DNA of 64,000 nucleotides from Marinobacter sp. LA51 (GTDB lineage: Bacteria > Pseudomonadota > Gammaproteobacteria > Pseudomonadales > Oleiphilaceae). Location of the stretch: NCBI RefSeq assembly GCF_030297175.1, contig NZ_AP028070.1:1984001-2048000 (forward strand). Direction: 5' to 3'. A program made the position numbers and the translations under genes. The notes below the pieces were generated by a model. It was given only the letters and a program-made list of their open reading frames with translations. It was not told the DNA's origin and did not search any database. Shown in pieces: positions 50,329 through 63,404 of this stretch; position 1 is the stretch's first letter, and each line of letters starts with the position of its first letter.

Positions 50329-51288
50329 CTACCCCGGAAGGAAATCAATGGGAAACCGGACTTTTCTGGTTTCCACATCATCTGCGCCAAAGTTGAACAG
50401 CCGCACTCTCATGGCGATACGCTGCTCCAACGGCGGGTTACCCAATTCCGAGCTCACGACCTGACAGGCCGATACTGAGCCATCGGGTTCGATGATCAGC
50501 TCTAACAGGAGTTTGCCCTCGAGCGTCGGGTCCTGCCTCAGCTCCCGGCGATACAGGGAATAAAGTGCGGTTTTCTGGGCATCAAAGACTTTGCGGATGT
50601 TGCTCATGGCCCGCTCACCCACCGACGATTCTTGCCTGGCCTCGCCCTTGGCCACCTTGGATACCCCCTTGGCCACATTTTTAACCTCCTTCACCCGGTG
50701 CCCCTGCACCGCAACCTTAGCCTGAGGTGTCGCGGAATCCGTCACGCCACCACTACCCTGCAAAACTTCCGATGGGGGGGTGACGCTCTGCGCTGCCATT
50801 TCAGCACTGGTGTTTGCTCGAAGCCCTTCAGGCTCACTTGCTGCTGGCGCCCTTAACGAGGCGAGCCGGTCCTTCATGGCAAGCAACCCGGAACGGGAAG
50901 CCTTTTCCCGTGCCTGCTCCGCAGTCTGGCGCTTGACAGCGACTGGTTCAGGTTTAGGCGCCAGTTCAGGCGCAGGCTTAGCAACATTGGGTTTTGGCTG
51001 GGTTTCAGGCACCGGCTCTTCTTTAGTGACTGGTTCTGGCTCCGGCGGTTTGGGTTCGGGAGCCACTATCGGTTTGGGCCGTTCTACCAAACGAGCCAAT
51101 TGTGGTGGAACCTGTTCAGCCTCGGAACGTTCAATCTCGGGAACGTGAAGGGATGGAATCCAGAGTGCAACAGGAAGGAAAATAACGGCGACCAGAGCGG
51201 CTACAATAGCAAACTGGCGATCTTCTCTGGCAGTGGAACTCCAGGGCAGCTCCCCACTGGTTGCGCTCCAATGACGAGGGTCAGCCAT
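50329..51288 (-). CDS. TonB-like protein with AgmX/PglI-type C-terminus
   Basis: A 319-residue inner-membrane protein with one helix (26-45), a Pro/Glu/Lys-rich periplasmic spacer (60-130), an Ala/Ser-rich linker and a C-terminal domain (about 225-319). The domain's pattern (ALYSLYRRELRQDPTLEGKL, LIIEPDGSVSACQVV, LEQRIAMRVRLFNFG) is that of the AgmX/PglI TonB-like family of Myxococcus. Its start overlaps the second ExbD gene by 8 bases. It is the last gene of the nine-gene operon and probably connects the ExbBD motor to an outer-membrane or TPR partner. Confidence 0.85.
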   Translation of the reverse strand: MADPRHWSATSGELPWSSTAREDRQFAIVAALVAVIFLPVALWIPSLHVPEIERSEAEQVPPQLARLVERPKPIVAPEPKPPEPEPVTKEEPVPETQPKPNVAKPAPELAPKPEPVAVKRQTAEQAREKASRSGLLAMKDRLASLRAPAASEPEGLRANTSAEMAAQSVTPPSEVLQGSGGVTDSATPQAKVAVQGHRVKEVKNVAKGVSKVAKGEARQESSVGERAMSNIRKVFDAQKTALYSLYRRELRQDPTLEGKLLLELIIEPDGSVSACQVVSSELGNPPLEQRIAMRVRLFNFGADDVETRKVRFPIDFLPG

Positions 51289-51769
51289 TGCGCACCTCCG
51301 CCTCAACGGCCAGGCGGACCTGCCGGAATTGCTGGTCAACACAGGTTTGCATGATCTTACGCAACAGCCGGTAGTTGGTATCCCGCCCTACCATGATGGT
51401 CACCTCGAAGCCCATTTCAGGGACGGCAGATAGCCGCTGACGACGGTACGCAAGCTCGTCGGCCAACCCGGCGATGTGAGAGTCGCTCACTTCGATCCCA
51501 TCCAGCCGGGCAACCTCCCGGCCCTGGACCAGGATCACTCCGCTGGCCACCTGAACGACCAGGGAGTCATCTGCCTCGTGCTCTGCCGTGGATTGGGGCA
51601 ATGCTACATCGGCCGTGCTCTGCATCACTTTGACGTCGGACGAATTCACCATCAGAAAGAAGACAAGGATGGTAAAAATGTCCATCAGAGAAACCAGATT
51701 GAGCCCGCCTGCCCGCTGCACTCGACCATGATGACGTCGAATCCTTCCAGCTCTGCGTGACGATTTCAT
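51281..51769 (-). CDS. ExbD/TolR-family protein (second copy, Asp retained)
   Basis: A 162-residue TolR/ExbD protein: a basic N-terminus, one helix (23-44) with the functional Asp30 in LVSLMDIFTILVFFLMV, and a periplasmic domain (VTIMVGRDTNYRLLRKIM). In TolR and ExbD this aspartate carries protons that drive the motor. It overlaps the first ExbD gene (ATGA) and the TonB-like gene (8 bases). Confidence 0.9.
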   Translation of the reverse strand: MKSSRRAGRIRRHHGRVQRAGGLNLVSLMDIFTILVFFLMVNSSDVKVMQSTADVALPQSTAEHEADDSLVVQVASGVILVQGREVARLDGIEVSDSHIAGLADELAYRRQRLSAVPEMGFEVTIMVGRDTNYRLLRKIMQTCVDQQFRQVRLAVEAEVRNG

Positions 51770-52296
51770 ACGTCCTCCCTCGCCGCGACACCGCTGGCAT
51801 CCGAGAGCTGTCGATCTGCCGGCGCATCCATCAACGCAACATCGGGGAAGAGCTCGCCTTCAACCACACTCGCGGCAACAACGGCCGGGTACGAACGCAC
51901 CGTATCCATGGCGTGCACCAGTGTCTGGTAATCGATATCCGGTCCCACTTCCAGAATGACGTCGGTCTTGTCAGGAGCACGGCGTTTTATTTCCTTTAAT
52001 ACCTGCCTCAGGCCGTCAAAATCCTGCTCATTCTTGTTCGCTGGCAATGCCACGATGACGCCGCGCTCACTGTCCGCAATTTCGAGGCCAGCCGGAATCA
52101 ACGTTACCACCAGCCTGAGTTCCTTAAGCTCCGCTGAACCCGCAGTGTCTTGCCCGGGAAAATTAAGCTCAATCATGCGCACCTGGCTGAACACCATGCC
52201 CAGCAGCAAAACCGGGACCAGCACAATCATCAGATTCATGAACGGCGTGATGTCCAGGTCCGGTGAAGCAGCCATTTTTCGATGTCGGCGTCTCAT
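51766..52296 (-). CDS. ExbD/TolR-family protein (first copy, Asp replaced by Asn)
   Basis: A 176-residue ExbD-family protein. The helix LDITPFMNLMIVLVPVLLLG aligns with ExbD INVTPFIDVMLVLL, and the residue in the place of the proton-carrying Asp is Asn21 (codon AAT, checked in the DNA). The periplasmic domain (LDGL-like, ILEVGPDIDYQTLVHAMD) is normal. The start is probably ATG at 52296; a GTG two codons upstream is possible. It overlaps the second ExbD by 4 bases. Confidence 0.88.
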   Translation of the reverse strand: MRRRHRKMAASPDLDITPFMNLMIVLVPVLLLGMVFSQVRMIELNFPGQDTAGSAELKELRLVVTLIPAGLEIADSERGVIVALPANKNEQDFDGLRQVLKEIKRRAPDKTDVILEVGPDIDYQTLVHAMDTVRSYPAVVAASVVEGELFPDVALMDAPADRQLSDASGVAAREDV

Positions 52297-52342
52297 ACAC
52301 ACTTACTCATGAGTTGATGGACATGTCAGAACCATTCCTGAA

Positions 52343-52990
52343 TTAAGCCGGGGCGGCTTGGCTGCGTTGATCCGAGATGATGTTCAACAATTTGACGCCT
52401 GCCATTTCGAAGCTGTCGACAATCTCGTTGGTCCGGGTTTGCAACAGCGCATGAAACATCAGCAGTGGAATGGCGGACATAAGGCCAAATGCCGTGGTGT
52501 TCATCGCGATTGAAATACTCTCTGACAACAGGCTTGCCTTCTGCGAAGGGTCGGCAGCGGCTACCGCGGTAAACGCAGCAATCAGGCCAATAATCGTGCC
52601 CAGCAGACCCAGCAAGGTTGCGATGTTCGCAAGGGTGGCCAGGTATTGGGTCCGCTTTTCCAGGCGAGGCAATACCTCCATCAGCCCTTCTTCCATCGCG
52701 TATTCGATATCCTCGCGCCGGCTATGATTCAGTAGACGCGCAATGCCTGCACCCATGATGGAGGCAATCGCGCTGTCGGAGTTACTGGCGGCCTTCATCG
52801 CACGCTGGTAATCACGCTTCTGCAGCAGCGGTAAAATCCCCCGCTCGAAGGCCACCCGGTTTCTGCGGCGAACCGAGGCAAGGTAAAAAAAGCGCTCGAG
52901 GGTAATAGCAAGCCCAATGGCGAGCACCACCGCGATGGGGTACATAAACGGCCCACCTTCCTGAAAAAATCGAACCATCGTGTCCAGCAT
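52343..52990 (-). CDS. MotA/TolQ/ExbB proton-channel protein
   Basis: A 215-residue TolQ/ExbB protein with three membrane helices (about 16-36, 115-140, 160-182) and the family core LATLANIATLLGLLGTIIGLIAAFTAVA. In ExbB-ExbD and TolQ-TolR motors this subunit forms the pentameric channel. It is followed 46 bases later by two ExbD genes, so the stator would hold one ExbB and two different ExbD types. Confidence 0.9.
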   Translation of the reverse strand: MLDTMVRFFQEGGPFMYPIAVVLAIGLAITLERFFYLASVRRRNRVAFERGILPLLQKRDYQRAMKAASNSDSAIASIMGAGIARLLNHSRREDIEYAMEEGLMEVLPRLEKRTQYLATLANIATLLGLLGTIIGLIAAFTAVAAADPSQKASLLSESISIAMNTTAFGLMSAIPLLMFHALLQTRTNEIVDSFEMAGVKLLNIISDQRSQAAPA

Positions 52991-53018
52991 GAGTCTGCTC
53001 TCCGTATTTACTGCTTGG

Positions 53019-53390
53019 TTACTGTGTTGTTATTACCGAGCCCTCGTTGGGGCTCAGAAGCGATGGATTGAGGGTTTCGCGGAATAGTCGATGACCCTCA
53101 AAAATGACCGGATCCACAGGTTGCGTCAGCGCCGGAAACTGATCCTGTAGTTTTTCCCGTGGTCGGCGCGGCAAGGTGGGCGCCTGCCAGGGCAGAATAT
53201 AGAGCACGCGCGGATTGTCCTCTCCCATGCTAGCCGACAGCCCCTCCACGTTTAGGCTTATGCCCTGCACTTCGTTACTCTGGCCTGGTGCCGAGGCCAA
53301 TGAAGCTTGAGCAGTAAGGCCGAAAAAGACCGCAACCAGGCTACATACCAGGCGCCTAACCGTTGCTGTCCAACCGCCGATTTCAATCAT
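53019..53390 (-). CDS. Small secreted protein of the TPR-motor operon
   Basis: A 123-residue protein with a signal peptide (about 1-33, ASA cleavage) and no recognised domain. The mature part contains VLYILPWQAPTLPRRPREKL and FEGHRLFRETLNPSLLSPNEG. It starts immediately after the stop of the TPR lipoprotein (TGA then ATG) and lies 28 bases before exbB, so it is clearly an operon member. Probably periplasmic; function unknown. Confidence 0.7.
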   Translation of the reverse strand: MIEIGGWTATVRRLVCSLVAVFFGLTAQASLASAPGQSNEVQGISLNVEGLSASMGEDNPRVLYILPWQAPTLPRRPREKLQDQFPALTQPVDPVIFEGHRLFRETLNPSLLSPNEGSVITTQ

Positions 53391-53864
53391 TCAGTCCAAC
53401 CTCCGTTCGAGGTCCGCGATCCAGCCGGCCACTGCCTGATCCTCAGCTTCAGAAAGCTCTCGATAACGCTGGTAATGCACCAGTGCTTTCTGAAGATCGA
53501 GGAGATACAGCTCGGCAATCACCGCCAGGTTGTAATGAAGCTCCGCTACCCTGGGTGAATGCTCCAGCCCACGCTCCAGCAGTGACGTGGCTTCCACGAA
53601 GCTGCGATCCTCGACCAACAGCAACGCCAAATTGTTTACCACCACAGGATCTGCGGGATTTAACTCCACTGCCTGCCGCCAGGCTCTTTTGGCTGCCCCC
53701 GCATGGCCCTGCTCCAACGCTTGCCTGCCCTGCTCTGCCAGGGTCGCGGCGAGTGCTGGATCGACTTGGGCCTGCGGCTTTACCACGGGGCCAGAGCAAC
53801 CCGCTACCATGGCCAGGCACACACCAAACAACAGAGCGCAAATGTCACTTCGGCTACCCATCAT
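53391..53864 (-). CDS. TPR lipoprotein
   Basis: A 157-residue protein with a lipobox (MVAGC, Cys about 23), so probably outer-membrane anchored. Two to three TPR repeats (GHAGAAKRAWRQAVELNPAD, FVEATSLLERGLEHSPR, LQKALVHYQRYRELSE) follow. The ATG at 53864 overlaps the upstream TPR stop (ATGA) and has GGAGG six bases upstream, which excludes the longer frame to 53909. In the Myxococcus comparison it is the counterpart of the TPR lipoprotein GltE/AglT, by architecture only. Confidence 0.82.
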   Translation of the reverse strand: MMGSRSDICALLFGVCLAMVAGCSGPVVKPQAQVDPALAATLAEQGRQALEQGHAGAAKRAWRQAVELNPADPVVVNNLALLLVEDRSFVEATSLLERGLEHSPRVAELHYNLAVIAELYLLDLQKALVHYQRYRELSEAEDQAVAGWIADLERRLD

Positions 53865-56665
53865 CCAGGCCCTCCAGTAGATGCATGTTGATCTTTCCAC
53901 GTCATCCACCGTACCGAACGGCTATAACGCCCAGGGTTGAGTTGAGCCAGAACGCCCAGGCTCTTGCCAATCCAGGCATCGTAACCGTGGTCTGTCACTC
54001 GGCGATGATTATCGGAGTGAATGGCAATCGCCTTTTCCTCAAAGGGAAACGCCTCTTCCTCCAGCAACATCTGATACTGCATGGCCTCGAGTCCATTCAG
54101 GTCCGCAGGAACCGAAGACGTCATCAGATCCTCAGCCAAAACCCGGTAAAGTTCGGCACGACGGAACAGCGTCTCCGAACGCACGGTCTCCCCTCCCAGC
54201 TGCTCAGCCTCAAGAAATCGCGTTCGGGCACTCTCAAGGGCGCGCTGTTTTTTATCCAGCGAGTCCGCCAGTGGCTGGCTCAGGGGAATTGAGGTGAAAA
54301 TCGCGGCATCCCTGGCACCGAGCACCAAGGCAGCCCGGGCTGACCAGGCAAGGGACTCTTCAGAGTGCCACGGACTGGCCAATTCACTTGCCACCATAGT
54401 CGACCGAAGATTTCCGGCCCGCTCACCAGACTTGATTAACCGATGTCGCATGGTTTGTAGTTGCAGGTGTTGTCCGGCGTCTTCAGCGCTCGGATTGGTC
54501 TTCAGGTAGGACAAGTAGAGCCGGTCTCGGTTAGCCTGATCTCCGGCTACGTGAAAAAGCTCGGCGGCTTTTAACTGCAAAGGCCAGTGCTCGGCCGCGG
54601 TCGACGCGGCGCCGAGCAACTCATTGGCGGCCAATAGAGGCTGATCCGAGGCCACGTAAGCATGGACCAGTTTGTCGCTGATTCCGGCCGTCAGTTCATG
54701 GTCAGAAAATCTGGTGCGGAAAAGGCGGAGTTGTTCGATGGCCGGCGCCCACTGGCCAGCTTTCAGCAACGAGTTGGCGGCATCGAAGCGCCCTTTGACA
54801 GCAATTTCCGATCCCGGCAGAACGGCTTCTATCCGGGTAAAATGCTCGACCGCACTGGTTAGGTCACCCCGCGCATTGGCCGCTTCACCCTGGCGGTAAA
54901 TGGCCAGTGCCAGCTGTTGTTTTGCATTCGACTCCGAATTGTTCTTATTAGGATCCGGCATTTCCTGCAATACCTGCTTCCAGGCCCGTTCGGCTAAGGC
55001 ATACTCGCTTTGGCTCTGGCGAACCTTGGCAATCACCAACCAGGCAGCATAGCGTTCCTCAGCAGAGGCGTTGGCGTTGGTGACAGTCCGGCCTGCATAG
55101 GTCAGTGCCGGTTCCGGATTGCCTGATGCCAACCACCGGGAAGCCAGATCCGCAGCAAGTCCGGGAAGGCGAGAATCGTCAGGAAAGCTCTGTTCAAATC
55201 GATCGGACTCGGCAGAAATCGTTGCCAGTTCAGGCCGGAACTCGGCGGTTCGACGGTTGCCCTCAAGACCATCGCGCAGCAGGACCAGGGCTGCCCAGCC
55301 AGAATCCGCCGCCTCCGGGTAATCGTCAGTCTGATAAGCCGCTCCCTGGTAGTCCGACAGCGCCCCGAGATATTCACCCGCCTGCAACCGCGCGTCGCCG
55401 GCAAGGCGAAGTATCTGACCTGCAGACGCAGTGCGTGATGCCAGGGATTCATAGTAGGTAGCTGCTGCGGAGAACGCGCCGTGACCGCGAATCTTATCGT
55501 TTTTGGCGAACGCCAGGGTTCCTTGGTTGTAGTGGAAATCGGCGAGCGTCCGACTGTACAACTGCCATCGCGCCTGGTCCTGCTCAGACAATGCCTGGTA
55601 ACTCGATGGGGCAGCATACATCGCAATATAATCTGCCTTGGCGGCACGGACTTGGTCATGTTTGTCGGCCCGTTCCCACACAGCGGCAACCTGGGCCATG
55701 AACGCAGGGTTCTTGGGGTGGTTCGGGTGAAAACGGACAAACCACTGGTTGGTGGCAACGCTTGCCTCGTAATCACCTTGAACCGCATGGAAATCGGCAA
55801 GACGGTCGAATAACAGATACGCCCAGTGTCGCGGTGCGTCGACTTCAAGCCAGGCAGCCAACGTATCCGGCCCCTCTTTCCGTGCAGCCATCAGAGCCAG
55901 GGCCCGGAATGTGTCATCAATGGCGTCGACCGCTGAGGTCTGTGGATTCTGAAGGCTTTGAGTGTCCGGAAGAAACTCGTCCAACACGGACAGAAAAGTA
56001 AGGCCTGCGCGCTCCCAGGCAGACGGGCCCTGTTTAAACTGACTCCATCCCAGCATGTATTGAGCTTTTGTACGGAGAGCACTGGCGTCTTCGGTGTTTA
56101 TCAAGGCCCGATAGCCGGACTCTGCTTCGGCAAACCGACCCGCCGAAAAGTCGGATTCCGCTATCCTGAAGCGCGCCTCCTGCACGAGTGGGGACTGGGG
56201 ATAAAGGCCTACCAGTTGTTTTAGCCGATCTATAGACTGTTCCGACTGCCCAGTGAGAGCATAAGCCTTGGCCATCTGGTACAACAGTTCGTCGAGTCGA
56301 CCTCCGAATGAACCCTGCCCCAGTATGGCTTCGTAACTGCTGAGCACTTCTCCATAGACACGCTCTTCTTCTTCGGGTGAAAAACCCAGGTCTTGACCAG
56401 AGCGATCACGAATATTGGTTAGGCGGTTGAGCGCGTCAATCCGCACCGCTGGTTCATCGGACGACTGGAACAATTGCTGATACCGGCGGGCGACTTCAGC
56501 CGGGGAAATGGCCGCCATCGGCCTGGATTCGAATTTGAGGTACACCGGCCGCATATCGGCAATGGTCTCGCCGTCGCGACCGAGCTCGACCCTGAACGAT
56601 TCCTGGGCCGCCGCCGATAACGGCATCAGAAATGAAGACACCAGCGCGCAAACGAACCCTCTCAC
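53861..56665 (-). CDS. Large periplasmic TPR protein
   Basis: A 934-residue protein with a signal peptide (1-20, AAA-Q) and many TPR/SLR-type helical repeats along its length, such as LLYQMAKAYALTGQSEQSID, FRIAESDFSAGRFAEAESGY and LAIYRQGEAANARGDLTSAV. No membrane helix after the signal. It uses a GTG start overlapping the upstream stop (GTGA). A long solenoid of this kind suits a periplasmic scaffold spanning between the motor and the outer membrane. By size and position it resembles GltD/AgmU-like proteins; homology is not proven here. Confidence 0.82.
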   Translation of the reverse strand: MRGFVCALVSSFLMPLSAAAQESFRVELGRDGETIADMRPVYLKFESRPMAAISPAEVARRYQQLFQSSDEPAVRIDALNRLTNIRDRSGQDLGFSPEEEERVYGEVLSSYEAILGQGSFGGRLDELLYQMAKAYALTGQSEQSIDRLKQLVGLYPQSPLVQEARFRIAESDFSAGRFAEAESGYRALINTEDASALRTKAQYMLGWSQFKQGPSAWERAGLTFLSVLDEFLPDTQSLQNPQTSAVDAIDDTFRALALMAARKEGPDTLAAWLEVDAPRHWAYLLFDRLADFHAVQGDYEASVATNQWFVRFHPNHPKNPAFMAQVAAVWERADKHDQVRAAKADYIAMYAAPSSYQALSEQDQARWQLYSRTLADFHYNQGTLAFAKNDKIRGHGAFSAAATYYESLASRTASAGQILRLAGDARLQAGEYLGALSDYQGAAYQTDDYPEAADSGWAALVLLRDGLEGNRRTAEFRPELATISAESDRFEQSFPDDSRLPGLAADLASRWLASGNPEPALTYAGRTVTNANASAEERYAAWLVIAKVRQSQSEYALAERAWKQVLQEMPDPNKNNSESNAKQQLALAIYRQGEAANARGDLTSAVEHFTRIEAVLPGSEIAVKGRFDAANSLLKAGQWAPAIEQLRLFRTRFSDHELTAGISDKLVHAYVASDQPLLAANELLGAASTAAEHWPLQLKAAELFHVAGDQANRDRLYLSYLKTNPSAEDAGQHLQLQTMRHRLIKSGERAGNLRSTMVASELASPWHSEESLAWSARAALVLGARDAAIFTSIPLSQPLADSLDKKQRALESARTRFLEAEQLGGETVRSETLFRRAELYRVLAEDLMTSSVPADLNGLEAMQYQMLLEEEAFPFEEKAIAIHSDNHRRVTDHGYDAWIGKSLGVLAQLNPGRYSRSVRWMTWKDQHASTGGPG

Positions 56666-58314
56666 TGTGCCGCCTCCGCAAGGTTTTCCAGCGCAAGGTA
56701 TTCGTATAGATGGGCGATCTGTTGCGCGGTTTTGTCGATAGCATTAGCCATTTCATTGTCCTGTTCACTGACGTAATCCAGCGCCAATTGATCCAGGTGT
56801 TTCTCAGCCCGCTGCGCCAGGGATAGAGTCTGAGCTGACAGCCGCTCAGTCTGGTTGCTCAGTGTCCGGGTTTGATCGAGCTGTTTTCGAATTGTGGACG
56901 GCCGAGCGCTAACTCGGCGCTTAAGTTTCTGCAGGCTGTCGGTGGAGGCTGAGAGGGTTTCCGAGACACTGCGAAGGACCTCCGCCTGTGCAGTATTCAG
57001 CGGCTCCGCGGTCAGCTCCGCCAGCCACCGAGCCAGTGTCATTTGGCGCTCGCGATGCTCAGTAGCCTCGCCATCATCCTGGCCATCAAGCAATACCAAC
57101 TGATCGGCCAATGACTGGGCAAATATGTCGAGATCCCTTTGCTGCTGCGCCAGCCCCTGGCCCAACTCCCTCACCGCGGCCACTCGGCGCACGGCCCTCT
57201 GGGCCTCTGGCTGGGCCAAAAAATCCAGTAAATAAGCCATTCTTGGCTGTGTCAGCGTGCGGCTGTCTGCCAGGAACCACTCGAGATCGGATGCCCGTGC
57301 ATCTTCGACCAAGGACTTGTACGCGCCCTGCTCGCGTATTCCGGTAGCCAGCTTGCGCAGGGTGACGCGTTCGCTTTCAAAGGCGGCATTGGCCGCAAGA
57401 TAGGCCTCTCCCGCCTGGCCCAAGTAGCCGGACAGATCGAATCCGCGACCCATGGCAATCCACGCGTCCGCCACGCCGGAAAACGCCAGCGGAAATTTTT
57501 TGGCCCGATGCCAGCTTTGCATGGAGGCGCGATGGTTGCCTTTTTCAGCAAGCGCCAGCCCGTGCAGGTACAGTGCCTGGGGGGTGTTGTCGGACTCTAG
57601 GGACACTTTCTCCAGAAATCCGATTGCTTTGTCGGGGTCGTCATTTTGCAAGGCCAGATAGCCGGCCCGAACCCGAAGCCTATTCACCAGATGATCTCTG
57701 CGATCAGTATCCGAATCATTCTCTGCCATCGCCATGGCGACGCGGAGGGCAACTAACGCGCGGGTGGGATTAAGATCCGAGCGTACGTATTCGCTGGACA
57801 GGTTCAAATAACCGTTGGCGGCCCAAAAACCTGATTCCATCTTTGCCAATACCTGCCCGGCCCTCTCGGCGTTGCCTGAATTCAGCTCCAGCTGGGCCAG
57901 CCGGTAGCCAGCCTCCTGCCGCGTTTCTCCGAAGCCAACTCGAATTGCATGCTCAAACCATTGCCTTGCTTCCGGAGTAGCGCCTTGAGCAAGCTGATAA
58001 CGACCCAGCAACAGTGCGGCGTCAGCGCGGTGGTGATGGCTTTCAGCCACATTCCTCAGCGCATCCAGACCCTCGGCGGTTCTTCCCGTAGCCATAAACA
58101 CCTGCGCTCGGAGAAACTCTGCTGATTCCCCGCTCATCTGCTTAGAGAGCGTTACCACAGGCGTAAGCTCACCGGTTGCCAAGGCAAAGCGAGTCAAGCC
58201 AGCTTTCAGCTCATTCGGTGTCTGGCTAGTAGCTGACGCGGCAAAAGACCTGCCCGCACAAAGCACTAACACGCAGAAAGTTAACCGCAGGGATGCCAAC
58301 ACTCGGAACATCAT
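56662..58314 (-). CDS. Periplasmic TPR protein with C-terminal coiled coil
   Basis: A 550-residue protein with a signal peptide (1-25, SFA cleavage), N-terminal TPR repeats (ADAALLLGRYQLAQGATPEA, YRLAQLELNSGNAERAGQVL, YLALQNDDPDKAIGFLEKV) up to about residue 290, and a C-terminal region (about 340-545) rich in Glu/Gln/Leu heptads that looks like coiled coil. ATG ATG start with AGG six bases upstream, 6 bases after the previous gene. Its stop overlaps the next start. Probably another scaffold of the same complex. Confidence 0.8.
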   Translation of the reverse strand: MMFRVLASLRLTFCVLVLCAGRSFAASATSQTPNELKAGLTRFALATGELTPVVTLSKQMSGESAEFLRAQVFMATGRTAEGLDALRNVAESHHHRADAALLLGRYQLAQGATPEARQWFEHAIRVGFGETRQEAGYRLAQLELNSGNAERAGQVLAKMESGFWAANGYLNLSSEYVRSDLNPTRALVALRVAMAMAENDSDTDRRDHLVNRLRVRAGYLALQNDDPDKAIGFLEKVSLESDNTPQALYLHGLALAEKGNHRASMQSWHRAKKFPLAFSGVADAWIAMGRGFDLSGYLGQAGEAYLAANAAFESERVTLRKLATGIREQGAYKSLVEDARASDLEWFLADSRTLTQPRMAYLLDFLAQPEAQRAVRRVAAVRELGQGLAQQQRDLDIFAQSLADQLVLLDGQDDGEATEHRERQMTLARWLAELTAEPLNTAQAEVLRSVSETLSASTDSLQKLKRRVSARPSTIRKQLDQTRTLSNQTERLSAQTLSLAQRAEKHLDQLALDYVSEQDNEMANAIDKTAQQIAHLYEYLALENLAEAAQ

Positions 58315-58320
58315 GGCTGC

Positions 58321-58869
58321 CTACTTCCACTCACGAAACGACACACGAGGCTCGAATTCGGGCCCCTTGGCGTCCAGAGTCATCTGAAGCCGCAAACTTC
58401 CCGGACGCTTTTTAAAACGGTAGCTCGATTCCCGGCGCACAAAACGATCATTGCCCGATCGAGCCGTGACTACCGCCTTCAGCGAATGGCTACCGTTGGG
58501 CAGATTGCCAATAAACAACTGCTGAACACCGCCTTCCTCCAGAGCCTCCTGCTCTCGCTCGGAGTACAAGTAAGACACCACCGGTTTGTCATTGACGAAC
58601 AGCTCAACCGAATCAAGCCCCAGGGCATCCGGACTGACCAGCGTCAGAAAAACTGACAGGCGACTATCAGCCGGGTGTAGCAGCCGTTGTTCCAAAGCAA
58701 AAACTCGGGCCGAATGTTCAGAAACCTGCGCCCTAAGCACATCAATGGCCTGATCAATGTCTGCCCCAAGCGCTGCCGAGGGCAGTAAAGGAAGGGAAAA
58801 GTAGAAACCGAGAAGCAACCCAAGTGTTGGGTGTATCCGGCCCGGAATTATAGATTTTGTGCCGAACAT
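58321..58869 (-). CDS. Secreted beta-rich protein, first gene of the TPR-motor operon
   Basis: A 182-residue protein with a signal peptide (about 1-35, ALGA cleavage), a short coiled stretch (VLRAQVSEHSARVFALEQRL), and a domain with Ig-like periodicity (VELFVNDKPVVSYLYSE, GNLPNGSHSLKAVVTAR). The AGGAGG site is about 12 bases from the ATG at 58869, longer than ideal, so the start is uncertain; the frame stays open to 58974. I do not recognise a named family. Periplasmic or membrane-associated function in the same complex is inferred. Confidence 0.68.
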   Translation of the reverse strand: MFGTKSIIPGRIHPTLGLLLGFYFSLPLLPSAALGADIDQAIDVLRAQVSEHSARVFALEQRLLHPADSRLSVFLTLVSPDALGLDSVELFVNDKPVVSYLYSEREQEALEEGGVQQLFIGNLPNGSHSLKAVVTARSGNDRFVRRESSYRFKKRPGSLRLQMTLDAKGPEFEPRVSFREWK

Positions 58870-59126: not shown

Positions 59127-59163
59127 AAAAAAAGCGGGGACGCCTTTCAGGGCACCCCCGCTT
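59127..59163 (-). terminator. Intrinsic terminator of the MoxR-VWA operon
   Basis: aagcgggg (59132-59139) pairs with ccccgctt (59156-59163) and the inner gcc/ggc also pairs. Seven U follow on the minus strand. It lies 46 bases after the CoxE-like gene. Confidence 0.85.
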
Positions 59164-59178
59164 GATATGCCGAGCTTT

Positions 59179-59210
59179 GCCGATGCTCTCAACCGCATCG
59201 GCTTTTTTTT
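59179..59210 (+). terminator. Plus-strand intrinsic terminator without an upstream gene
   Basis: A perfect 8-bp stem pairs gccgatgc (59179-59186) with gcatcggc (59195-59202), followed by eight T (59203-59210). It reads in the plus direction, and no annotated plus-strand gene lies upstream within 8 kb. Confidence 0.8.
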
Positions 59211-60387
59211 ACTTGCTCAGATGCTTCATGGCCGATTCAAGACCATCAATAGTGAGCGGATACATGTGATCATTCACCAGTTGCTTGGCCATGCCCAGAG
59301 AGCCGCCATTGCCCCAGTAACTTTCCGGTAGCGGGTTCAGCCAGACTACCTTGCGGAAATGTTCCGAGATGCGCTGGAACCAGGTGGCGCCGGCCTCCTC
59401 ATTCCAGTGCTCTATTGAGCCACCGGGATGGGAGATTTCATAGGGCGCCATGGTTGCGTCGCCGACGAAGATCACCTTGTAGTCCGGCGAATACTTGTGA
59501 AGGATATCCCAGGTACTCGTCGTCTCGTTCATCCGCCGAATATTATTAGTCCAGACACTCTCGTAAACGAAGTTATGGAAGTAGAAATACTCCATGTGCT
59601 TGAACTCGAGCCGGGCCGCAGAGAACAGCTCTTCGCAAACCCGAACGTGCGGGTCCATGGAGCCGCCCACATCGAAGAAGATCAGGACCTTCACAGAATT
59701 GTGCCGCTCCGGGACCATCTTCAGGTCAAGATAACCTGCATTTCGGGCAGTTGAACGAATAGTATCGTCCATATCAAGCTGGTCTGCAGCACCTTGGCGA
59801 GCGAACTTGCGCAGGCGACGCAGTGCTACCTTGATGTTGCGAATGCCCAGCGTGATGCTGTCATCAAGATCCTTGAAAGCGCGCTTTTCCCACACCTTGA
59901 CTGCACTGCCGTGGCGACCGTTTTTTTGACCGATACGGAACCCTTCCGGGTTGTAACCATCGGCACCAAACGGAGAGGTTCCGCCGGTTCCAATCCACTT
60001 GTTACCACCGGCATGGCGTTCGTTCTGCTCTTCCATGCGCTGCTTGAAGGTCTCGATCAGCTCTTCAAGCCCCCCCAGAGAGTCTATCTTCGCCTTGTCT
60101 TCCTCGGACAGATGCTTCTCGAATTCGGCACGCAACCAGTCGTCCGGAATCAGCATCTCCATGAGGTCTTCAAGGTTCTCGATACCCTCAAAGTAAGCCT
60201 TGAACGCGCGGTCAAACTTGTCGAAGTGGCGCTCGTCCTTTACCAGACACAAGCGTGCCAGGTAATAGAACTCCTCCATGTCGGCAAACGCCAGACGATT
60301 CTGCAGCGCCTCCAGGAGGTCCAGAAACTCACGCAGGCTGGCGGGCACCTTTGCCCGCCGAACTTCGAGAAAAAAATCAATCAACAT
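59209..60387 (-). CDS. CoxE-like VWA domain protein
   Basis: A 392-residue cytoplasmic protein. The N-terminal half is helical and acidic, with a Gly-rich segment (GGNKWIGTGGTSPFGADGYN, 128-147), and the C-terminal half is a VWA-type domain. The metal-site motif is DVGGSMD (239-245), with Gly replacing the first Ser of a classical DxSxS. It is the usual partner of a MoxR ATPase, whose gene lies 22 bases upstream. The start at 60387 (MLIDFFLEVRRAKVP) is preferred over the longer frame. Function of the pair: chaperone-like insertion or activation of a target, not known here. Confidence 0.85.
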   Translation of the reverse strand: MLIDFFLEVRRAKVPASLREFLDLLEALQNRLAFADMEEFYYLARLCLVKDERHFDKFDRAFKAYFEGIENLEDLMEMLIPDDWLRAEFEKHLSEEDKAKIDSLGGLEELIETFKQRMEEQNERHAGGNKWIGTGGTSPFGADGYNPEGFRIGQKNGRHGSAVKVWEKRAFKDLDDSITLGIRNIKVALRRLRKFARQGAADQLDMDDTIRSTARNAGYLDLKMVPERHNSVKVLIFFDVGGSMDPHVRVCEELFSAARLEFKHMEYFYFHNFVYESVWTNNIRRMNETTSTWDILHKYSPDYKVIFVGDATMAPYEISHPGGSIEHWNEEAGATWFQRISEHFRKVVWLNPLPESYWGNGGSLGMAKQLVNDHMYPLTIDGLESAMKHLSK

Positions 60388-60409
60388 AAAACGAGACTCT
60401 TGCTGAGTA

Positions 60410-61252
60410 TCAGCTGCGACGACGGGCCATGAAGGCCAGCTTCTGCAGCAGGTGAACATCCTGCTCGTTCTTGACCAGAGCACCGTACAACGGCGGCAAT
60501 GCGGAACTCGTGTCTTTCTCTTGAAGCATTTTGGCAGACAATTCGTCCGCCATCAGCAGTTTCAGCCAATCGATCAATTCCGATGTCGACGGCTTTTTCT
60601 TCAGCCCAGGAACCTTGCGCACGTCGAAGAATACTTCAAGGGCATCACGGACAATTTGCTGCTGCAAGCCGGGGAAGTGAACATCCACGATGTCCTGCAT
60701 GGTTTCGTGATCCGGGAAGCTGATGTAGTGGAAGAAGCACCGGCGCAGGAATGCATCGGGCAGTTCCTTTTCGTTGTTGCTGGTGATCACAACGATCGGG
60801 CGCTGCTTGGCCTTCACGAACTGCTGGGTTTCGTAGACGTAGAACTCCATCCGATCCAGTTCCAGCAGCAGGTCGTTCGGGAACTCGATGTCTGCCTTGT
60901 CAATTTCATCAATTAACAACACGACCTGCTCATCGGCATCAAACGCTTCCCACAGTTTGCCTTTGACAATGTAGTTGCTGATGTCCTTGACCTTTTCGTC
61001 ACCCAGCTGAGAATCGCGCAGGCGGGATACGGCGTCGTACTCATAAAGCCCCTGCTGGGCCTTGGTGGTCGACTTGATGTGCCAGGGAATCAGCTTCTTG
61101 CCGAGCGCGGCCGCCATTTCCTCCGCCAGCAAGGTCTTGCCGGTGCCGGGCTCGCCTTTGATCAGAAGCGGACGCTGGAGCGAAATCGCCGCATTCACGG
61201 CCATTTGCAGGTCATCGGTGGCTACGTACTTGTCGGTACCGGTAAACTTCAT
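60410..61252 (-). CDS. MoxR-family AAA+ ATPase
   Basis: A 280-residue MoxR/CbbQ-type AAA+ ATPase with Walker A GEPGTGKT (33-40), Walker B LLIDEIDKAD, sensor 1 ITSNN and an arginine-containing LRRCFFHYISFP segment. MoxR proteins act as chaperones that mature or assemble VWA-containing partners. It lies between two VWA genes (18 and 22 bases), making a three-gene core. The ATG has AGGAA upstream. Confidence 0.92.
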   Translation of the reverse strand: MKFTGTDKYVATDDLQMAVNAAISLQRPLLIKGEPGTGKTLLAEEMAAALGKKLIPWHIKSTTKAQQGLYEYDAVSRLRDSQLGDEKVKDISNYIVKGKLWEAFDADEQVVLLIDEIDKADIEFPNDLLLELDRMEFYVYETQQFVKAKQRPIVVITSNNEKELPDAFLRRCFFHYISFPDHETMQDIVDVHFPGLQQQIVRDALEVFFDVRKVPGLKKKPSTSELIDWLKLLMADELSAKMLQEKDTSSALPPLYGALVKNEQDVHLLQKLAFMARRRS

Positions 61253-61270
61253 CGCGTTGGTTCCTGTTGG

Positions 61271-63361
61271 TTACTTTTTCTGGTCTGAATCATCGGTGTC
61301 AGGCTTTGGCTGGTTATCCGATTGATCAGAATCAATATCACTATGGCCTGGAAGATCATCGAATTCGGACAGATCAAAATCATCCAGCCCGAATTCTTCC
61401 TCGTCGCTTTCCGCATCCTGCAGGATAGGAGCTTCTACCGGGTCGTCACTTTCTTCTTCGCCGCCGACTTCCTCCGGTACCACACTCTCTGCGATCGGAA
61501 TTTCCTCTTCAGGCACCTCATCGACATCTGTCTCCAGGGCAGCGGAATCGTTCGCAGTGTCCAGTTCTTCTGTTTTCTCCGGAATGTCATCAGAGGCCTC
61601 TTCGTCTTCAAGCTCTCTGGCAACGGCCGCTTCCGGTTCCTCTTCCAGTTCTTCTTCCGGCGCCTCGGGCTCTTCAGATTCCATTGGCACAGATTCATTC
61701 GCCTCAGCAGAGTCAGTATCTTCGGAGGCTTTGGCCTGCTTCTTTCTCAAGGCCAGCCAGACCAGGGCCATCAGGCCAATGCCGCCGGCGCCCGCGCCGA
61801 ACACCCACATGGGGGGCATCGGTGACGCGCTTTGATTGTTGTCGGCAGCGTCCCCGGTTTCTATCGGCTCGGCTTCCGTCTCCGGAGCTTCTGCAATCTC
61901 TGGCGTTTCAACCTCACTGACGTCAATCGGACTGGTGATGCCATTAACGCTTGCGGGCACTGTCACCGAATCCGGCTCGGGCGTTGACTCCTCGGGCATG
62001 GGTTCCGGCTGAGTCCCAGCTTCGGCTTCGTCGGTTACCGCAACTTCGGCCTCTTCCACTTCACCTGCCGGCTGGTCCAGCACCGGCGAGACGGCCGTGA
62101 ACACGGTGGTTGTGCTGAATTTGCGACCGAAGGTCTGCCCATCGGCAACTACCTCGATCTGGTAAACCCCATCCTCGGGTAGCCGACCGATGGTGTCAGT
62201 GAACATCCCATCTACCGGGGGTTCTGCCGACAAGTCCTTGGTCCCACTACGGCCATCCTCGGAAATCACACTGACCTTGATATCAAGAACCTGCAAAAAA
62301 TCCGGGTCTGTAATCTTCTCGCCTTCCTCATAGAACGCGATATTCAGATCAATGGGCGTTTCTTCGGAAAACCTTGCCGGTACCGGGCTCACTGCCATTC
62401 GCAGATCACTGACGACTGTCACGCGACTGCCCTCACCCAATTCACCTTCAATACGCCACCGGCCTGCCACTGGTTCGGTGATGGTCATCAGGTCATAACC
62501 TGCTTCCCGGTTCCAACGCACGTTTTCCGGGAGGCTCGTGAGCGCCACCGAGCTGCCATCAGGCTTCTCAAGTGTCAGTTCCCGGGTATCCCGTGTTTCC
62601 TGCTCGCCCCAGAAAACCAGTGCGGTGAATTCGGAGACGCCTTCATCAACGGTAAAGCCATCCCCTTCGATGGGAATCTGTTCCTGCGGGACTGCTGCAT
62701 TCAATGCTTCCAGAAATGCCCGACTAAGGGCCTCGGCGGTCTCCGCAACCTGAAACCGGCCACCGGATTGAAGCGCAAGTTGTCTCAGGAATTCGGCGTC
62801 CGCTTCGGCGGAAAGCGCAATGGGGTGGAAGGTGGCGCCCTGTTTGGCCAGCTCGGGAACAAGAGTCCCGAGAATCCGGCGTTCTTCTTCCTGATTCTTG
62901 CCAGCATCGTCCGACACATCGACTTTGCCGTCAGTCAGCAAAATGAAGTGGGTGTTTTCGAGAACACCGCCGGTGTAGTAGCCGTCGCCCGCCACCTCGA
63001 TGGCTTTGCCGAGGTTTGTTCTGAGGGCAACCGAATTGATCTGGGCTGACTTGTCCCTGGCCACAGCCCGCCACTGGTCGGTCACCTCACGATGAGGCAC
63101 CAGCATGTTGACGTACTGTCCGAAGGTCCAGAGCCCGGCCATTGAACCTGCCGGAAGCATCTCAGCCAGCAGCCTGACCGCCGGCTGACGCAAGTTGTCG
63201 GGGTCATTACTTTTCATTGACCCGGAAATGTCCACGATGATCCGGACATCGGATTTGTCAGCAAGGACCAACTCCGGAGCTTGCTGAGCCTGCACCACAG
63301 TCGGGAGCACCGTCTGCAGTACCAAGGCAATAACGAACATCAACGTGTGAAATCTGGGCAT
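61271..63361 (-). CDS. Membrane-anchored VWA protein with acidic cytoplasmic tail
   Basis: A 696-residue protein. It has a signal peptide (1-25, VQA cleavage), a periplasmic VWA domain with an intact metal site (DISGSM, 44-49), beta-sandwich segments, a Glu/Pro-rich linker, one membrane helix (about 517-538) followed by RKK, and a cytoplasmic tail of about 156 residues that is extremely acidic and contains FGLDDFDLSEFDDLPG. The topology puts the VWA domain in the periplasm and the tail facing MoxR. ATG at 63361; a TTG four codons upstream is possible. The acidic tail resembles part of FimV. Confidence 0.85.
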   Translation of the reverse strand: MPRFHTLMFVIALVLQTVLPTVVQAQQAPELVLADKSDVRIIVDISGSMKSNDPDNLRQPAVRLLAEMLPAGSMAGLWTFGQYVNMLVPHREVTDQWRAVARDKSAQINSVALRTNLGKAIEVAGDGYYTGGVLENTHFILLTDGKVDVSDDAGKNQEEERRILGTLVPELAKQGATFHPIALSAEADAEFLRQLALQSGGRFQVAETAEALSRAFLEALNAAVPQEQIPIEGDGFTVDEGVSEFTALVFWGEQETRDTRELTLEKPDGSSVALTSLPENVRWNREAGYDLMTITEPVAGRWRIEGELGEGSRVTVVSDLRMAVSPVPARFSEETPIDLNIAFYEEGEKITDPDFLQVLDIKVSVISEDGRSGTKDLSAEPPVDGMFTDTIGRLPEDGVYQIEVVADGQTFGRKFSTTTVFTAVSPVLDQPAGEVEEAEVAVTDEAEAGTQPEPMPEESTPEPDSVTVPASVNGITSPIDVSEVETPEIAEAPETEAEPIETGDAADNNQSASPMPPMWVFGAGAGGIGLMALVWLALRKKQAKASEDTDSAEANESVPMESEEPEAPEEELEEEPEAAVARELEDEEASDDIPEKTEELDTANDSAALETDVDEVPEEEIPIAESVVPEEVGGEEESDDPVEAPILQDAESDEEEFGLDDFDLSEFDDLPGHSDIDSDQSDNQPKPDTDDSDQKK

Positions 63362-63404
63362 AGTCGCGCTCAAGGCATTGTCCGTTTTGTTGTTGGCCCC
63401 TCCG

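Follow-up and report, generated by a model that had tools for sequence, protein, structure and literature searches.

A nine-gene operon of the Agl-Glt/Nfs core type in Marinobacter and the natural asparagine in its AglQ-type motor subunit

Introduction

What would a compact set of envelope-motor genes drive in Marinobacter, and how would its motor run when one of its TolR-type subunits naturally bears the residue change that paralyzes the Myxococcus motor in the laboratory (PMC3858216)? These questions are raised by a nine-gene operon at 50329-58869 in a 64,000-nucleotide stretch of Marinobacter sp. LA51 (contig NZ_AP028070.1, positions 1,984,001 to 2,048,000; the window hereafter), whose genes an earlier note, made from the letters of the window, had likened to the Agl-Glt machinery of Myxococcus. 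The operon as such is not new, since the core complex to which it belongs was described in Gammaproteobacteria, two Marinobacter included, in 2011, with its function given as unknown (PMC3169522; this paper and the others cited here were available in part). That core has been called a possible basal transport machinery (PMC3858216), and the literature searched yielded nothing on its function in Gammaproteobacteria. What we add is a description of its motor, which departs from the myxobacterial one at a single, widely conserved position.

An operon of the Agl-Glt/Nfs core type

The nine open reading frames (ORFs), numbered g1 to g9 by position and all on the minus strand, form one compact operon transcribed in the order g9-g8-g7-g6-g5-g4-g3-g2-g1. 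The earlier note had the genes overlapping or nearly touching, and so they do: g8/g7 and g3/g2 overlap by 4 bp, and the gaps that were measured are 0 bp (g6/g5), 6 bp (g9/g8), 28 bp (g5/g4) and 40 bp (g4/g3). Family assignments come from Pfam and NCBIfam scans, which returned one MotA/TolQ/ExbB protein, two ExbD proteins, TPR matches in three proteins and a TonB-like protein with an AgmX/PglI-type C-terminus, the composition that had been proposed. This arrangement is not due to chance, since the same order is found in all 21 nine-gene sets examined from the genus, a check that the note had proposed, and is contradicted by none of 94 loci from the class; the nine-gene operon is thus confirmed as real.

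We searched the genome of Myxococcus sp. CA023, reached via an MglA query, with profiles built from the window families. The g4, g3 and g2 profiles match three adjacent genes in the same order, AglR-AglQ-AglS (4.4e-48, 4.1e-14 and 1.5e-21), the first two of which agree in length with the published AglR and AglQ, 245 and 162 aa (PMC3169522), so that the parallel drawn earlier between one TolQ plus two TolR proteins and the AglR-AglQ-AglS motor extends to gene order. A second cluster is matched in order by g8-g7-g6-g1 (2.6e-12, 2.2e-36, 1.4e-29 and 3.5e-14), and a third, on an MglA-bearing contig, by g9, g8 and g7. Larger profiles brought the best Myxococcus values to 2.9e-98 for g7, 4.8e-68 for g6, 2.8e-24 for g1, 1.6e-15 for g8 and 1.0e-7 for g9. 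Eight of the nine genes are found in the Myxococcus genome in this way; g5 is the exception and is linked by a weaker profile match to proteins at the GltF position.

Homologs of GltC, GltD and GltE are present by family profiles. The g8 profile reaches Myxococcus ORFs at 3.9e-14, 1.6e-15 and 2.4e-4, and two of these, when scanned, both match NCBIfam GltC (2.5e-18 and 3.9e-26), below its cut-off; window g8 alone gives no direct match to that family. The g7 profile finds four long Myxococcus ORFs, with a further match of 1.5e-34 in the whole-genome search, and a profile search of the PDB with g7 returned TPR proteins only. For g6, the matched ORFs (5.7e-40 and 4.8e-68) themselves match NCBIfam GltE at 3.5e-35 and 2.5e-30, again below cut-off, and window g6 alone does not reach that family; a lipobox-like motif is present in 21/21 members from the genus and 62/79 from the class. 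The g1 profile matches GltG-type ORFs (2.8e-24 and 1.2e-24), and g1 itself is under the NCBIfam GltG equivalog cut-off (40.9 vs 650). Because these matches stay below the equivalog cut-offs for GltG, GltE and GltC, the matched Myxococcus clusters are to be read as including paralogs, Nfs-like and others.

The g1 product is not an ordinary TonB: its AgmX/PglI C-terminal domain scores 58.4 bits against a cut-off of 40, and it falls below both TonB cut-offs (Pfam TonB_C, 14.7 vs 24.6 bits; TIGR01352, 19.4 vs 27.1). By alignment it starts about 30 residues before the transmembrane (TM) helix and so has no cytoplasmic FHA domain. In a tree of g4, the window protein, 45 other gammaproteobacterial rows and 6 myxobacterial rows stand together against 5 TolQ/ExbB rows (support 99/95), with the outgroup on one side of the branch in 100% of 200 bootstrap trees and with long branches flagged. 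The kinship with Agl and Glt proteins, which had been drawn from architecture, is therefore borne out by the family profiles, those of the TPR proteins included, and by the placement of g4 with AglR; neither of the outcomes that the note had named as refuting its reading was found. Judged by sequence comparison, the operon is a member of the Agl-Glt/Nfs core complex and homologous to that machinery, and it encodes an AglR-like channel, two TolR-like subunits, a GltG-like transducer, periplasmic and lipoprotein TPR partners of GltC, GltD and GltE type and two small secreted proteins.

Asparagine in the AglQ-type subunit

In an alignment to myxobacterial AglQ, Asn23 of g3 (codon 52236-52234) falls on Asp28 of AglQ, and g2 retains its aspartate (Asp30, codon 51682-51680); the earlier note had not remarked on the missing Asp of g3. 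Across 115 aligned sequences (the window, 20 loci from the genus and 94 from the class), the g3 position is Asn in 113, Asp in one (locus L287) and Ser in one (L299), and the g2 position is Asp in 115/115; the myxobacterial proteins have Asp in 6/6 of the AglQ type and 6/6 of the AglS type. Median pairwise identity within the diverse g3 set is 0.42. The TM segment of g3 shows strong conservation and its periplasmic ExbD-like portion is retained, with solved ExbD structures matched by g3 along both. A crude covariation analysis of paired g3 and g2 sequences placed its top pair in the TM helices of both (0.335, against a shuffled-pair maximum of 0.232). We also considered an N/D swap motif, with Asp standing in place of Asn at position -6, and rejected it (Asp in 56 and Asn in 56 of the 115, in some lineages only).

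In Myxococcus, the D28N change in AglQ abolishes proton conductance and paralyzes the machine (PMC3858216). Whether AglQ and AglS form homodimers or heterodimers is not known, the Asp being conserved in both (PMC9389320), and a hand-over-hand action of the two has been proposed as a possibility (PMC9120999). A large natural family in which the Asp is lost from one subunit and never from the other bears on this question.

With moderate confidence, we prefer to read the operon products as a trans-envelope machine of the Agl-Glt/Nfs core type that is driven by protons and whose axle is probably an AglQ(Asn)/AglS(Asp) heterodimer. An AglR-type pentamer would surround this dimeric axle, and protons would be carried only by the AglS-type Asp, so that there would be half as many proton steps per turn as with a two-Asp axle. 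The GltG-type g1 would then relay the motion to the TPR scaffold, from where it would reach a cargo in the outer membrane or at the surface.

The most serious alternative, which we consider unlikely, is that the axle is a homodimer of the AglS-type g2 with two Asp, g3 being a non-conducting structural or regulatory paralog such as a peptidoglycan anchor or a brake. This would suit the near-universal absence of the proton-carrying Asp from g3 and the retention of its periplasmic ExbD-like part. On the other hand, g3 lies beside g2 in 94/94 class loci with its TM segment strongly conserved, including the seven motors linked to type VI secretion systems (T6SS) described below, and a protein serving only as an anchor would have no need of a conserved helix facing the channel.

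Several points weigh against the heterodimeric machine that we prefer. Its support is comparison of sequences, and an AglS-type homodimer would work too. L287 and L299 depart from the Asn rule, and since the g3 loci were gathered with a profile of Asn-bearing sequences, strongly diverged Asp-type g3 proteins may be under-represented; in an independent search with g7, judged without sight of g7 loci that lack a nearby g3, no additional genome proved to have an intact locus and no g3. The covariation between g3 and g2 could also stem from shared ancestry. Finally, no outer-membrane partner or cargo gene adjoins the window copy, whose neighbors therefore give no clue to its cargo. The motor of the Asn-variant operon lends itself to purification and testing, and with it the working of this class of motor becomes directly testable; a genetically tractable laboratory Marinobacter has been reported (PMC4503921).

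One observation on L287 stands apart: it is the sole class locus with Asp in both TolR-type subunits, no g6 was detected there, and it lies near an SH3-barrel gene.

Paralogous copies, cassettes and a motor in type VI secretion clusters

A g3 query found matches in 50 of 61 genomes of the genus. The window and 20 fetched loci (19 from relatives, plus a second copy in the genome of LA51 itself) resolve into three paralogous groups: A, the window type, with 8 sets, B with 6 and C with 7. Each set has the nine genes in the same order, although in the 13 that belong to copies B and C g8 was identified from its place and length. The LA51 genome holds copies A and B, which are sisters in the g4 tree (98/94). 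By score bands of the g3 search, sequence-checked only in the 8, 6 and 7 sets just named, copy A occurs in 40 of the 61 genomes, B in 26 and C in 11, with 11 having none. Across the class, the g3 profile matches 84 of 369 genomes and the g7 profile 88, all 84 lying within the 88; in three of the four g7-only genomes the contig ends 0.1-1.6 kb past g7. We fetched 94 of the 95 g3 matches outside LA51, the one left out being an 80-aa fragment (G141). Among these 94 class loci, 52 have the nine genes in order, 10 have g4-g3-g2-g1 only, and g3 and g2 are both present in all.

Copy A sits between a CoxE gene and a MaoC-like gene, and the window copy behaves as a cassette at this site. Flanks were compared in 17 of the 21 genus genomes without a full copy A (G027, G032, G051 and G057 were left out), all 17 lacking a type-A g3: six have an empty site with the flanks 17-330 bp apart, five have 6.85-7.24 kb between the flanks, three have no MaoC match and three have only a weaker match elsewhere. 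In the one gap of the five that was fetched, g9, g8, g7, g6, g5 and g1 are present and g4-g3-g2 are cleanly absent, with g5 overlapping g1; for the remaining four, length was the sole criterion. All five of these genomes carry copy B. The B motor therefore probably drives the copy A transducer in these genomes, and a motor-less copy A in a genome that keeps a second operon elsewhere suggests motor sharing. In Myxococcus, AglRQS binds both GltG and NfsG (PMC3858216).

The motor also occurs in another setting. In 7 of the 94 class loci (L240, L243, L244, L251, L259, L269 and L271), g4-g3-g2-g1 lie inside T6SS clusters. These seven are among the 10 motor-only loci, and in them the motor genes follow TssM, TagF, a PP2C phosphatase and a kinase-type gene, the T6SS-neighbor families having been checked on single members. 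TssA, TssB, two TssC, TssE and TssF come after the motor genes in L259, and in L240 the side downstream of the motor is not T6SS. The seven T6SS-linked motors form one clade nested among the core-operon motors (100/98; 100/96 with sister rows), all seven keep the Asn/Asp split, and as a clade they derive from the Glt-core motor.

These distributions suggest that the motor is a separable module able to serve several machines per cell. In a broader model, gammaproteobacterial Agl-type motors would be asymmetric, with an axle of one AglQ(Asn) and one AglS(Asp) and a single proton-carrying carboxylate turning within an AglR pentamer, and would constitute a portable power module that paralogous envelope machines of one cell share and that T6SS have adopted. 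We offer this broader model tentatively, as something a little short of an even bet.

What the machine may drive

The machine more likely transports or assembles an envelope cargo, in the manner of Nfs, than powers gliding. That it drives gliding or some other movement on surfaces, for which the operon has the same core parts as Agl-Glt, seems very improbable to us, since the LA51 genome gave no MglA match at E ≤ 0.001 (one protein query, without a positive control), presence in the genus is patchy by the score bands given above, and the core alone is insufficient for motility (PMC3169522). A Tol-Pal-like role in envelope upkeep, suggested by the TolQ/TolR kinship of the motor and by CpoB/YbgF-like TPR stretches that the NCBIfam scan found in g7, is about as improbable, as LA51 has a separate TolQ/TolR-like pair (L001, named by likeness) and 11 of the 61 genus genomes do without any copy. 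Least probable of all is an ordinary TonB-ExbB-ExbD system serving an outer-membrane receptor, which the TonB-like layout of g1 and the ExbB/ExbD kinship of g4, g3 and g2 would recall, but against which stand the TonB_C score under its cut-off, the separation of g4 from LA51's own ExbB/TolQ in the tree, the fixed TPR partners and the lack of any receptor-like gene noticed among the ORFs at 47-62 kb, which were not scanned individually.

Features and neighbors of the operon

The features of the operon are collected in Table 1. In four genes the likely start, set by eye from relatives, is not that of the longest ORF: 58869 for g9, as in the earlier note, 53861 for g6, 52296 for g3 and 51288 for g1; signal-peptide-like starts were seen, by eye and with no predictor, in g5, g7, g8 and g9. 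The gene next after g1, 3' of the operon, is convergent, and a terminator-like hairpin precedes g9 (two such hairpins were found in the region, against 0.8 expected from shuffles of it); the nine genes probably form a separate transcription unit.

Table 1. Genes of the operon and the hairpin upstream of it, in order of transcription (window coordinates)
Feature	Product or description	Position	Strand	Evidence or remark
Hairpin	Terminator-like, between CoxE gene and g9	59132..59163	-	13 pairs, 9 G-C, T tail
g9	Small secreted protein, first operon gene	58321..58869	-	Conserved in copies A, B, C
g8	Periplasmic TPR protein, GltC-like	56662..58314	-	TPR_16 6.1e-7
g7	Large periplasmic TPR protein, GltD-like	53861..56665	-	TPR_6 8.8e-12
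g6	TPR lipoprotein, GltE-like	53391..53861	-	TPR matches, lipobox; longest ORF start 53909
g5	Small secreted protein, GltF-like (position and a weak profile match)	53019..53390	-	hhalign
g4	TolQ/ExbB-type channel subunit, AglR ortholog	52343..52990	-	PF01618 5e-29
g3	TolR/ExbD-type subunit, AglQ place	51766..52302	-	PF02472 3.7e-11
g2	TolR/ExbD-type subunit, AglS place	51281..51769	-	PF02472 9.5e-15
g1	TonB-like transducer, AgmX/PglI-type C-terminus, GltG-like	50329..51288	-	NF033768 5.8e-16; longest ORF start 51342

The two small secreted proteins are the least familiar members of the set. Aligned by hhalign to the small secreted protein whose gene is flanked by those of GltE and GltG type, the place of GltF, g5 reaches P 1.2e-4 and a score of 28.6 (as controls, 20 column shuffles gave no more than 15.7 and four other families no more than 18.5), and in hmmsearch it matches only a Hyalangium protein at the equivalent place (2.7e-3); GltF is among the later additions to the machinery (PMC3169522). 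No Pfam or NCBIfam family matches g9, and its profile finds proteins in Myxococcus (1.0e-7, on a contig of mglA/mglB type) and Hyalangium (1.6e-5). A single-sequence AF2 model gives its mature part as a beta-sandwich (pLDDT 70.8), for which Foldseek found nothing in the PDB at E ≤ 0.001, the best being transthyretin- or fimbria-like sandwiches at 1.4e-3 and a TM-score of ~0.4; a profile search of the PDB had a best E of only 0.19.

Candidate partners adjoin the other copies. Copy B of LA51 lies next to a DUF3570 barrel and two OMP_myx_plus-type proteins, and of the four matches in this genome to TIGR04565 (an outer-membrane barrel family, myxobacterial by name) two are beside copy B and none is near the window copy. 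Copy C loci contain OMP_myx_plus and SH3-barrel proteins, and after the operon comes a 977-aa lipoprotein (L055:4294-7227, and the corresponding place in other copy C loci) that has PD40 propeller repeats, an HZS_alpha domain and, by eye, CxxCH motifs; it is accompanied by a 225-aa membrane protein and is possibly a redox cargo. Neighbors in the 94 class loci include a thioredoxin-like gene (21) and, upstream, ApbE (16) and DUF3570 (14). DUF3570 and OMP_myx_plus barrels and type VI secretion are candidate partners for the core machine described in 2011.

Some further observations concern these neighborhoods. A general role in flavinylation was considered and rejected, the [ST]GA[ST] motif being present in only 8 of the 14 DUF3570 proteins; the DUF3570 barrel of copy B in LA51 (L039:14561-15784) is without it. 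A phosphoribulokinase-family gene lies upstream of the core operon in 8/94 loci (L225, L210, L263, L229, L250, L272, L282 and L286). Upstream of the operon in the window (59209-63373) are genes for a CoxE-like VWA protein, a MoxR ATPase and a second VWA protein, which we do not count as parts of the operon because they are kept in relatives without it (the CoxE gene in all 17 tested relatives lacking a type-A g3) and are separated from it by the terminator.

Comparison with known systems

The nearest precedent is the core complex of Luciano et al. (Group B: gltC, D, E and G, aglR, Q and S, and one more gene; PMC3169522), in which the same genes share one region in the same class of bacteria. 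The set described here numbers nine: g5 is likened to GltF, g9 has myxobacterial homologs, and g9 (or g5) is probably the additional gene of that report. In the available part of that paper we found neither the Asn of the AglQ type nor a third paralogous copy, cassette states or linkage to T6SS. To our knowledge, and as far as the literature was searched, the Asn in the AglQ-type subunit with Asp kept in the AglS type, the three paralogous nine-gene operons of the genus, the cassette and motor-less states, and the linkage to T6SS are new; among the open-literature matches listed there was no report of a natural Asn variant and no title on a proton motor in T6SS clusters.

With the Agl-Glt machinery of Myxococcus xanthus the operon shares homologs of AglR, AglQ, AglS, GltC, GltD, GltE and GltG, and the order of the motor genes and of gltD-E-F-G is kept. 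It differs in having Asn for Asp28 of AglQ, a g1 without the FHA domain of GltG and a single operon, and in the lack of an MglA match in its genome under the one uncontrolled query (E ≤ 0.001) mentioned above. The Agl-Nfs spore-coat machinery of M. xanthus is alike in being a standalone transport system built on a Glt-like complex, with one motor serving two transducers (PMC3858216), whereas a second operon here mostly comes with a motor of its own, and lack of the motor has been sequenced in one relative and deduced from gap length in four. ExbB-ExbD-TonB and TolQ-TolR-TolA share with the operon a channel, a TolR-type axle and a TonB-like transducer, and g3 matches solved ExbD structures, but the machine predicted here would combine two unlike TolR-type subunits, one of them without the Asp, with an AgmX/PglI-type C-terminus and a fixed set of TPR partners.

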